Assembly (NCBI RefSeq): GCF_000152785.1
Contig: NZ_CH672414.1
Location: 2,063,639-2,127,638 of the forward strand
Direction: 5' to 3'
DNA from: Yoonia vestfoldensis SKA53
GTDB taxonomy: Bacteria > Pseudomonadota > Alphaproteobacteria > Rhodobacterales > Rhodobacteraceae
Length of the DNA stretch: 64,000 nt
Below, in pieces: positions 7,556 through 29,020 of this stretch. The notes under the pieces are model-generated. The model did not search any database. It was not told where the DNA came from and saw only the letters and a list, made by a program, of their open reading frames with translations. Every line of letters begins with the position of its first letter. Positions within the stretch are counted from its first letter, which is position 1. The position numbers and the translations under genes are program-made.

Positions 7556-7716
7556 CCGCCGTTGCTGTGCCTGAGAGATTCACCCGTCGCGGGGCTTGCT
7601 CCTTCGGCGGACCATCAAAGGCCACTCTTCGGCGTGTTGCACCCCAACCGGTCCTTTTGCCTGAGAGTGACCGGGGCGGTTGCTCCTTCGGCGACGGACA
7701 TCCGTTCTCTCCCGGA
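7556..7716 (-). promoter_or_regulatory. Tandem glycine riboswitch upstream of the DadA-like gene
   Basis: Read on the minus strand, two aptamers follow each other. Each has the conserved GCCGAAGGAGCAA and CTCTCAGGCA segments; the first ends with CTCAGGCAAAAGGACCGG, the second with CTCTCAGGCACAGCAACGG. Spacing between them (about 30 nt) fits the cooperative tandem glycine riboswitch. The dadA-like start codon lies about 37 nt downstream. A GC-rich hairpin (CGCGCGCAAGCGC) sits between aptamer 2 and the ribosome-binding site. Confidence 0.93.
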
Positions 7717-7773
7717 TGGCGTGTGATGTGGCGGGGTTACGCCGGAACCCGGCACCACGCAAATGAAATTCCG

Positions 7774-27678: not shown

Positions 27679-28320
27679 ATGACACGCATCCTTCCCGGCG
27701 TTATCGCCATGGCCGCCATCGTTGTGGCCTCAAATATCCTTGTGCAATTTCTGATCCTCGATGGCCTGCTGACCTGGGGGGCATTCACCTATCCGCTGGC
27801 GTTTCTTGTCACCGACGTCATGAACCGCGTCTACGGCACCCAAGCCGCGCGCAGGGTCGTGTTCGCGGGGCTGATCGTGGGGATCATCTGTTCGCTGATC
27901 GGCAGCCAGATCATGCTGCAAGGCGACGGGTACGAATACCCCGCCGTTGCACTGCGCATCGCGATCGGGTCGGCGACCGCCTTTGCCGTCGCGCAGATGC
28001 TCGACATCGCAATGTTCAACCGGCTGCGCGACGGGTCGTGGTGGAAAGCGCCCTTGGGCAGCACGCTGGTCGGGTCCACCGTGGATACGGTGATCTTTTT
28101 CGCGATTGCGTTTTCGGCGGTGTTCAACGGGCTGTCGGCAGCGGCGGCAGATGAAATCATCTGGGCGCAGGACGCCGTGCCGTTCTTGAACGCGGGGCCG
28201 CTGGTGCCGCTGTGGGTATCGCTCGCCGTGGCGGATTGGGGGGTCAAGCTGACCATCGCACTGTTGGCGCTGTTGCCATTCCGCCTGATTGTTGGGCGAA
28301 TGCAGCGGGCGAAAATTTAA
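27679..28320 (+). CDS. Queuosine precursor transporter (VUT/YhhQ family)
   Basis: A 213-residue membrane protein with about six helices; hallmarks are LTWGAFTYPLAFLVTDVMNRVYGTQAARRVV and the later TLVGSTVDTVIFFAIAFS. The family imports 7-cyano-7-deazaguanine or related queuosine precursors used for tRNA wobble modification. The ATG at 27679 fits the family start; the frame is open to 27646. The leader holds a CCCC-TTT-GGGG hairpin (about 27626-27638), which does not match a preQ1 riboswitch I know. Confidence 0.88.
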   Translation: MTRILPGVIAMAAIVVASNILVQFLILDGLLTWGAFTYPLAFLVTDVMNRVYGTQAARRVVFAGLIVGIICSLIGSQIMLQGDGYEYPAVALRIAIGSATAFAVAQMLDIAMFNRLRDGSWWKAPLGSTLVGSTVDTVIFFAIAFSAVFNGLSAAAADEIIWAQDAVPFLNAGPLVPLWVSLAVADWGVKLTIALLALLPFRLIVGRMQRAKI

Positions 28321-28330
28321 ACGCGAGTGG

Positions 28331-28357
28331 TGGTATATTTTTACTTGAAATATACCA
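28331..28357. promoter_or_regulatory. AT-rich inverted repeat after the transporter gene, ahead of the arfB leader
   Basis: TGGTATATTT-TTACTTG-AAATATACCA: perfect 10-bp arms and a 7-nt centre, very AT-rich compared with its surroundings. It could be an operator or promoter element for the small leader transcript (TTGAAA at 28345 lies within it), or an RNA hairpin ending the transporter transcript; there is no T run. Confidence 0.45.
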
Positions 28358-28391
28358 AATCTGTGCAACTCTACGGATATCGAAACATTTG

Positions 28392-28407
28392 AAAGGAGGT
28401 GATCCAG
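28392..28407 (+). promoter_or_regulatory. 16-nt perfect complement to the 16S rRNA 3' end (extended Shine-Dalgarno)
   Basis: AAAGGAGGTGATCCAG is the exact reverse complement of CTGGATCACCTCCTTT, the 3' end of bacterial 16S rRNA. GGAGG is spaced 7 nt from the GTG at 28407. Typical ribosome-binding sites match only 4-7 nt. Confidence 0.85.
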
Positions 28408-28463
28408 TGCATCATGAAGTTCTGGAGACGTGTGGCGGGACAACTTGGGGGGCGCGCAGCTAA
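28407..28463 (+). CDS. 18-residue peptide, possible arfB leader peptide
   Basis: GTG start at ideal spacing from an extreme Shine-Dalgarno, 18 codons, TAA stop: MHHEVLETCGGTTWGARS. I do not recognise the peptide. A second frame, ATG at 28414 to TGA at 28479 (21 codons, starting MKFWRRVAGQ, basic), overlaps it but is 14 nt from the GGAGG, less favourable. Downstream lie hairpins, an intrinsic terminator and then arfB, the arrangement of a leader peptide/attenuator. It could also be a free-standing small-protein gene ending at the terminator. Confidence 0.5.
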   Translation: MHHEVLETCGGTTWGARS

Positions 28464-28527
28464 GGCAGCCCTTGGCTGAATTAACCCCAAGGTGGAGATC
28501 CTAACCGACCCACCTCCGACATTCAGG
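28444..28527 (+). promoter_or_regulatory. Competing RNA hairpins between the 18-codon ORF and the arfB terminator
   Basis: Visible pairings: CTTGGGG (28444-28450) with CCCCAAG (28485-28491); CAGCC (28466-28470) with GGCTG (28474-28478); AGGTGG (28490-28495) with CCACCT (28510-28515). Alternative partners: AGCCCTT (28467-28473) is a perfect complement of AAGGGCT (28529-28535), the 5' arm of the terminator, and CACCTCC (28511-28517) is a perfect complement of GGAGGTG (28395-28401), the Shine-Dalgarno. The mutually exclusive pairings are the hallmark of an attenuator; function is inferred. Confidence 0.45.
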
Positions 28528-28560
28528 AAAGGGCTATCCCAACGCGGGGTAGCCCTTTTT
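28528..28560 (+). terminator. Intrinsic terminator upstream of arfB
   Basis: AAAGGGCTA-T-CCC, loop AACGC, GGGG-TAGCCCTTT then TT: 9 perfect outer pairs, further inner pairs and a run of T. It lies 46 nt before the arfB start. Confidence 0.9.
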
Positions 28561-28569
28561 GACTTTGAG

Positions 28570-28602
28570 GCCTCCGGCGGGAGTATTTCGAACAAAGCGA
28601 GG
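28570..28602. repeat. Dispersed repeat, copy 4
   Basis: GCCTCCGGCGGGAGTATTTCG followed by AACAAAGCGAGG, same orientation as copy 1, between the terminator and the arfB ribosome-binding site. Confidence 0.6.
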
Positions 28603-28606
28603 CGAG

Positions 28607-29020
28607 ATGCGCATCACCGACCAGATCGAGATTGCCGATTGGGAGCTGACAGAAAGCTTTGCCCGCGCGTCCGGACCGGGCGGGCAGAATGTGAACAAGG
28701 TATCCACTGCGGTCGAATTGCGGTTCGAGGCGGAACGGTCCCCCAACCTGCCCGATCCGGTGAAACGGCGGCTGCGGCGGCTGGCGGGGCGGCGCTGGAC
28801 GAATGACGGGGCCATCGTGATCTTTGTGCAGGACACCCGCAGCCAGGCCCGCAACCGTGACATCGCCCGCGAGAGGCTGGCCGAACTGGTCCTGTCCGCC
28901 ACCGTGGTCCCCAAACGCCGCGTCGCCACGAAACCGACCTATGGGTCGGTCAAGCGGCGGCTGAAAGAGAAGAAGGTGCGCGGGGAAGTGAAGGCGATGC
29001 GGGGGAAGGTAGATGAGTGA
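28607..29020 (+). CDS. arfB: Peptidyl-tRNA hydrolase ArfB (ribosome rescue, YaeJ/ICT1 family)
   Basis: Releases nascent chains from ribosomes stalled without a stop codon. The 137-residue product has the catalytic ASGPGGQNVNKVSTAVELRF (GGQ) near residue 24 and a basic C-terminal tail (KRRLKEKKVRGEVKAMRGK) that enters the empty mRNA channel. The ATG at 28607 follows GAGGCGAG; the frame is open to 28559 but the extension falls in a repeat. The gene lies 46 nt after an intrinsic terminator preceded by a tiny ORF, so it may be controlled by attenuation. Confidence 0.95.
   Translation: MRITDQIEIADWELTESFARASGPGGQNVNKVSTAVELRFEAERSPNLPDPVKRRLRRLAGRRWTNDGAIVIFVQDTRSQARNRDIARERLAELVLSATVVPKRRVATKPTYGSVKRRLKEKKVRGEVKAMRGKVDE

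Follow-up and report, generated by a model that had tools for sequence, protein, structure and literature searches.

In Sinorhizobium meliloti, a gene for a DUF1127 protein is controlled by a translation-sensing upstream open reading frame (uORF) (PMC12218461). As described in the accessible part of that report, the duf1127 leader resembles the RNA considered here in its short uORF, in a ribosome-binding site that pairs with a C-rich stretch, and in a proposed sensing of ribosome availability; it differs in having no intrinsic terminator, in a proposed dependence on Rho, and in carrying the C-rich partner inside the ORF. Likened by description in this way, it appears to offer the nearest published logic. 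The S. meliloti rnTrpL/peTrpL system, in the accessible parts of its reports (PMC7298713, PMC10117765), is an attenuator RNA with a functional leader peptide and is similar in that its leader carries a short translated ORF and gives rise to a small RNA. Its ORF is leaderless and forms part of the trp attenuator, whereas the RNA described below has a perfect Shine-Dalgarno (SD) sequence and no evident operon to attenuate.

The closest known RNA family appears from sequence comparison to be CC2171 (Rfam RF01867), a Caulobacter small RNA (sRNA). In the accessible literature CC2171 appears as no more than a name, in PMC5596092 (candidate MH_s33) and in the Rfam 15 paper (PMC11701678). Schrader et al. 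(2014) reported that two earlier Caulobacter non-coding RNAs are actually translated, and from the accessible text CC2171 may or may not be among them (PMC4117421). No match to the RNA was established in the accessible parts of reports on Hfq-bound Caulobacter RNAs (PMC11005374) and Bradyrhizobium sRNAs (PMC5082802). A literature search on CC2171/RF01867, the SD sequence and arfB, covering the titles and abstract openings of the papers listed, with few subscription papers among the sources, found no description of the RNA, and for an R. sphaeroides sRNA next to a release-factor gene no paper turned up.

Layout of the locus

The window, meaning the whole 64,000-nt stretch of Yoonia vestfoldensis SKA53 DNA that was analysed, carries the ribosome-rescue gene arfB, whose product is identified by NCBIfam NF006718 (185 bits; cut-off 100). 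Between arfB and its upstream neighbour lies a candidate RNA gene with the following features.

27679..28320, + strand: gene for the queuosine precursor transporter TIGR00697 (here named yhhQ), upstream neighbour
28345..28372, + strand: putative promoter, with -35 TTGAAA (28345-28350), a 16-nt spacer and -10-like AACTCT (28367-28372)
~28379-28560, + strand: RNA unit, candidate autonomous gene, from folding and comparison
28391..28407, + strand: SD, 17-nt exact complement of the 16S rRNA 3′-end; AAAGGAGGTGATCC (28392-28405, + strand) lies within it
28407..28463, + strand: 18-codon ORF with GTG start at 28407, predicted product MHHEVLETCGGTTWGARS and TAA stop at 28461-28463
28403..28426, + strand: hairpin A, pairing the 3′ side of the SD and the start codon (28403-28410) with codons 5-7 (28419-28426)
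28444..28491, + strand: outer helix, 28444-28450/28485-28491
28458..28477, + strand: inner hairpin, 28458-28465/28470-28477, holding the stop codon and all of AGCCCTT (in loop and 3′ arm)
28467..28473, + strand: AGCCCTT, suggested antiterminator partner of 28529-28535, unsupported
28493..28512, + strand: hairpin 2 (GGTGG/CCACC type), which offers the anti-SD segment an alternative partner
28511..28517, + strand: anti-SD CACCTCC, which pairs with SD positions 28395-28401
28529..28560, + strand: predicted intrinsic terminator of the RNA, stem 28529-28540/28546-28557 with a T-run to 28560; its 5′ arm includes AAGGGCT (28529-28535)
28607..29020, + strand: arfB, ATG at 28607, probably outside the RNA unit

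The SD, the 18-codon ORF, the hairpins, the terminator and arfB 46 nt further on are all in place as the initial annotation had described them. Positions 28380-28620 fold better than 200 of 200 shuffles (z -3.89), and a similarity search of the interval against plasmid records gave no match. A simple consensus scan flagged neither the terminator nor the promoter of the RNA, so both calls rest on folding and comparison. The SD is the exact reverse complement, over 17 nt, of the 16S rRNA 3′-end of a same-genus genome (L220); a search of the window's own assembly found no 16S rRNA, and the complementarity is therefore taken from relatives. The exact 14-mer form of the SD occurs once in the whole genome.

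The promoter block upstream of the RNA is conserved, at a steady distance, in 39 regions whose ORF is of the MHHE type found in the window. Its -35 element is TTGAAA in the window; a visual count gives TTGACA in 21 of the 29 relatives of other types. A 16-nt spacer separates the -35 from a -10-like hexamer whose second base is A and whose sixth is T; L074, L097 and L118 are among the relatives that depart from this pattern. A palindrome, GGTATATTT..AAATATACC (28332-28356), overlaps the -35 and is kept in only part of the genus. Beyond the terminator, GCCTCCGGCGGGAGTATTT (28570-28588) looks like a dispersed repeat and recurs just before arfB in L006, L008, L018, L029 and L081. Elsewhere, the window holds a glycine riboswitch aptamer (7639-7724, - strand, 65.2 bits).

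The ORF was compared among 68 distinct relatives (39 of the MHHE type and 29 others) that had been selected solely on a peptide motif spanning codons 6-12; L001, L002, L081, L175, L176 and L192-L194 were excluded beforehand, and L135 (no terminator match) and the duplicates L183 and L190 are also outside the set. In all 68 the frame ends at codon 19 (TAG in 44, TAA in 13, TGA in 11, TGG in none), with no earlier in-frame stop, bearing out by comparison that a short ORF precedes the terminator. Over codons 13-18 the true frame has no stops in 408 codons and the other two frames have five and three, a gap that is slight when taken alone. Third positions of conserved residues are nearly invariant (Thr12 is ACA in 66/66); part of the conservation of the ORF therefore belongs to the RNA and not to the peptide. 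A second frame, opening at an ATG (28414 onward; MKFWRRVAGQLGGRAAKAALG), was considered as the coding frame and set aside, since its length varies within the genus and the ATG is missing in MSR-type RNAs, whereas the GTG frame is fixed.

Structure of the RNA and pairing of its Shine-Dalgarno

The structure was assessed on an alignment of 37 MHHE-type RNAs, 35 of them from genus genomes and the other two being L066 and L102; of the full 39, L035 and L059 were left out. Four helices, namely the outer helix, the inner hairpin, hairpin 2 and the terminator, are paired in 94.4% of cells, against 26-65% for slid versions of the same helices. Double changes occur at 11 pairs, with 46 cells changed on both sides, and none of 500 shuffles scored as high in pairing or in double changes. 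The terminator is paired in 98.2% of cells with double changes in five pairs, and its mean ΔG is -24.6 kcal/mol over 39 sequences; the corresponding values are 97.6% and three pairs for the inner hairpin, and 91.9% and two pairs for the outer helix. Hairpin 2 is the weakest of the four (81.1%), and L022 and L025 are misaligned there by one column. The segment CAAGGTGGAGATCC (28488-28501), which contains the 5′ arm of hairpin 2, reads as an imperfect second copy of the SD with three mismatches and competes for the same anti-SD.

When folded as an alignment without constraints (RNAalifold), the SD pairs with the anti-SD (CRCCUCC) and the start codon lies in a hairpin with codons 5-7. This hairpin A is paired in 98.7% of cells over 68 sequences, against 39-47% in slid controls, with no double changes within the 29 non-MHHE sequences alone. 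The pairing of CACCTCC with the SD, which had been raised as a possibility in the initial annotation, is borne out by comparison and folding: it is present in 99.2% of cells over 37 sequences (44-59% in slid versions) and has a mean probability of 0.96 in 68 folded RNAs, and the anti-SD motif is found in 65 of the 68 relatives. The covariation analysis that had been called for is thus positive for the hairpins and the terminator and negative for the AGCCCTT pairing, discussed below, and for SD:anti-SD, where an invariant SD leaves no covariation to be seen.

The SD is paired with a mean probability of 0.98 in the 68 sequences, a value that drops to 0.68 once the sequence downstream is shuffled. 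Among 110 loci of other classes of the RNA the value is 0.67 against 0.74 in shuffled-downstream controls, and the latch is therefore a feature of one class, here class A. Except for a few contigs, class A consists of Rhodobacterales; L125, filed as Pararhizobium, also has the latch.

Distribution, relatives and the possible link to arfB

The RNA unit is present in all 36 same-genus genomes, 26 of them by comparison of the DNA before arfB and 10 examined separately. The comparison covered 30 loci, with the whole unit in 26, a part in L012, and the unit absent there in L024, L028 and L032; the 10 further genomes, which include the four behind these exceptions, each have the RNA once. Within the family, the exact SD-start motif was found in 90 of 198 genomes, one copy each, and in none with a reversed-pattern control (0/198). 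Across the class it was found in 30 of 385 genomes under 26 family labels (control 0), and both counts are lower bounds because an exact motif misses diverged copies.

Against the CC2171 model, the window copy scores 43.7 bits (E 2.5e-8). Since this is below the gathering cut-off of 75, the window RNA is not filed as a member of the family. The two begin with the same GAAAGGAGGUGAUCCAGUG, the alignment runs end to end (model 1-159) from SD to terminator, and both have a terminator at the end; they differ in the peptide, MSHC.. in CC2171 and MHHEVLE.. here, and the middle aligns poorly, with many non-standard pairs. Six of 10 RNA-bearing relatives match at E ≤ 1e-3 (36-48 bits, all below 75); three further loci were scanned whose sequence stretch does not hold the RNA. 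In another scan of 17 loci with Rfam, six scored above the CC2171 gathering cut-off, all with MSHC ORFs, and the other types and L105 fell below. The latch of class A is a further difference, as it is not seen in other classes.

The pattern GAAAGGAGGTGATCCARTG occurs in at least 119 stretches of named genomes. Most of these are under Alphaproteobacteria labels, and a short ORF comes after most of them. Among the matches listed, the ORF types are MSRxxLERGVGT (Rhodobacterales), MSHC (Caulobacterales, Hyphomicrobiales and others), MSSE, and MSYTKRCHLAGIAR (Bradyrhizobium). By sequence, the classes share a layout of near-perfect 16S-complementary SD, short ORF (mostly 14-26 codons) and terminator, and the window RNA is most likely the Rhodobacterales form of this alphaproteobacterial group. 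In 60 MSHC-type ORFs, Trp16 is kept in 49 and synonymous codons are used at Cys4, Ser20 and Leu18, while other codons are nearly fixed (TCT in 60/60 for Ser2, GCC in 30/32 for Ala19), a mixture suggesting that both peptide and RNA may be under selection in this type. The Bradyrhizobium type has 14 codons ending in KRCHLAGIAR and is identical in 11 loci (L056, L063, L068, L069, L083, L093, L095, L112, L127, L128 and L174). In L055, L078, L106 and L117 (Geminicoccaceae, Azospirillum) the same perfect SD heads a longer, secreted-looking ORF, of 57-59 codons in the three printed whole (L055, L078 and L106). A perfect SD with a short ORF also occurs in metagenome-assembled genomes filed under Phycisphaerales, Nitrosomonadales, Deltaproteobacteria and Burkholderiales (L041, L099, L086, L110 and L151), which may reflect chance, misbinning or wider spread.

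Downstream genes vary in the classes other than A. In a set of 149 loci with flanks from less than 100 nt to about 7.8 kb, the only ones outside class A with arfB close to the RNA are L061 and L108, where it is on the opposite strand. Ten convergent neighbours of same-layout RNAs in other orders were printed, of which at least one (L180) looked spurious; five likely to be real were picked, and all five belong to known Pfam families.

ArfB is present in 42 of 60 relatives searched. The neighbourhood was surveyed in 80 of the 90 motif-bearing family genomes. In 66 of these arfB follows on the same strand at no more than 460 nt, in seven it is 0.7-7.6 kb on, and in seven it is elsewhere, four times on another contig of a draft (G428, G610, G426 and G435). 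The remaining three are G591, with arfB on the same contig as the RNA, 4.16 Mb in length, but 3.06 Mb further along (about 1.1 Mb should the contig be circular), G510, with arfB 67 kb off on the other strand of the same contig, and G541, likewise on the other strand of the same contig. The steadier neighbour is yhhQ, found beside the RNA in 75/80 family genomes; it is not adjacent in G610, G426 and G435, which may hold another type of the RNA. Within the genus, G006, G009 and G026 keep the RNA by yhhQ with arfB 1.8, 2.5 and 3.9 kb on, respectively, and the interval holds long opposite-strand ORFs in G006 (one) and G009 (two) and four same-strand ORFs in G026. Class A loci without arfB in a flank of 1.5-3.8 kb are L046, L057, L082 and L121, and also L125. 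Thirteen RNAs were examined, 11 of them with yhhQ adjacent and arfB distant: all 13 retain the 18-codon ORF and its stop, the terminators being read by eye, and in the three missed by the strict anti-SD motif (L204, L207 and L214) CCTCC is still present.

In 15 of 29 loci with arfB, the gap between terminator and gene is 16-55 nt (one of the 15, L135, with an unsure terminator end), which leaves little room for a separate arfB promoter. Of 64 loci, 14 have a -10-like TANNNT at a distance of 4-9 nt upstream of the arfB start; shuffles that keep base content only give 3.6 ± 1.8. Start codons in this count were assigned by script, and at least two (L122 and L134) are one codon off. Some relatives may therefore start arfB transcripts right at the gene. 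A promoter for arfB after the terminator, named at the outset, when joined to a lack of readthrough, as what would refute attenuation, has some backing in relatives and none in the window itself, where no such element was found 4-9 nt before arfB. Some arfB copies are irregular. Additional partial matches, covering the last 35-43 residues of ArfB, occur beside the full gene in G429 (contig 7, 200-1187) and away from it in G021 (contig 1, 1520180-1520995). In G016 arfB is seemingly split over two frames, and in G488 and G438 it has one in-frame stop each; the defects in these three could be sequencing error.

Readings of the RNA gene

The anatomy of the locus, comprising the promoter block, the SD, a frame with a fixed stop, covarying hairpins, a terminator and SD:anti-SD complementarity, is shown by comparison of sequences. 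The reading that we favour, with a probability of about 0.7, is that of an autonomous small RNA gene at ~28379-28560 with its own promoter and terminator, which would act as a small mRNA or a dual-function RNA and whose start site would close itself. The ORF would be translated when a ribosome loads on the RNA while it is still being made; loading would have to precede transcription of the 3′ anti-SD (CRCCUCC), about 110 nt later. Where timely loading fails, the finished RNA would be shut, with the SD in the anti-SD helix and the start codon in hairpin A, and would stay silent. The output would be the 18-residue peptide, an RNA acting in trans, or both, and the gene would thus read out free ribosomes. 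On this reading arfB would be a long-standing neighbour whose expression comes from a start of its own or from leaky readthrough. In favour of the reading are the promoter block at a steady distance, the presence in all genus genomes, the fixed stop, the covarying helices, the higher SD pairing with the native downstream sequence, the RNAs kept with arfB far off, the convergent genes after same-layout RNAs in other orders and the -10-like elements before some arfB starts; against it count the closeness of arfB in most family genomes surveyed, the narrow gaps between terminator and arfB, the want of a -10-like element at that place in the window, the latch not being seen in other classes and the nearly invariant third positions.

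The initial annotation had instead proposed an attenuator, in which AGCCCTT would pair with the 5′ arm of the terminator whenever no ribosome finishes the ORF, allowing arfB to be read. The elements stand in the right order, arfB follows closely in most family genomes surveyed, and the AGCCCTT:AAGGGCT pairing, at 81.4% of cells in 37 sequences, exceeds its slid versions (33-69%). Shuffles do equally well, however, there are no double changes, and the outermost pair exists in only seven of the 37. Forcing the longest antiterminator-type helix costs 8.1-27.5 kcal/mol relative to the best fold (mean 21.7, 39 sequences), and the terminator keeps a probability of 0.97 whether the RNA is free or has its stop region masked, and of 0.98 if the start region is masked instead; the values describe the finished RNA at equilibrium and are silent on co-transcriptional kinetics. 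Nor would AGCCCTT be left free when no ribosome initiates, as had been supposed, since the covarying inner hairpin takes up four of its seven bases in the 3′ arm and the other three in the loop. The AGCCCTT pairing, the one antiterminator tested, was accordingly rejected as a conserved alternative to the terminator. With no covariation in AGCCCTT, and with the RNA retained where arfB is not adjacent, the attenuator is weak and very improbable. The proposed tie to arfB fares better in a looser form, in which some polymerases would pass the terminator into arfB and translation of the ORF or ribosome supply would tune the fraction, for example through Rho or polymerase-ribosome coupling. The close, co-directional arfB of most family genomes is compatible with such regulated readthrough, and the S. 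meliloti DUF1127 gene, as far as described, provides a precedent for control by a translation-sensing uORF (PMC12218461). Against this stand the persistence of the RNA where arfB is elsewhere, the -10-like elements that some relatives have immediately ahead of arfB, and the S. meliloti leader's want of an intrinsic terminator, and we consider looser coupling unlikely.

A purely non-coding sRNA, acting in trans by base-pairing with targets (CRCCUCC with SD sequences, for example) and carrying the ORF incidentally, would account for the nearly fixed third positions and the strong covarying structure, and CC2171 is itself filed as an sRNA. It sits poorly with an 18-codon frame and stop kept in every relative compared, with all three stop codons in use, and with a perfect SD at an ordinary distance from GTG or ATG, which makes it distinctly unlikely. 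A broader proposal, rather unlikely as a whole, is that a widespread, typically single-copy alphaproteobacterial RNA gene, whose least variable part mirrors the free 16S rRNA tail and leads into a tiny ORF, gauges free 30S subunits: an early-loaded copy would stay open and make peptide, and an unloaded Rhodobacterales copy would shut through its anti-SD and leak into arfB, tying rescue capacity to ribosome supply.

CC2171, filed as non-coding, and its relatives below threshold seem to belong together as small transcripts that are probably translated and whose SD match is very long. In Rhodobacterales, where that SD is predicted to be masked by the RNA's own 3′-end, the gene would be a natural setting in which to study the effects of an over-long SD and the question of whether it lets cells sense ribosome supply.
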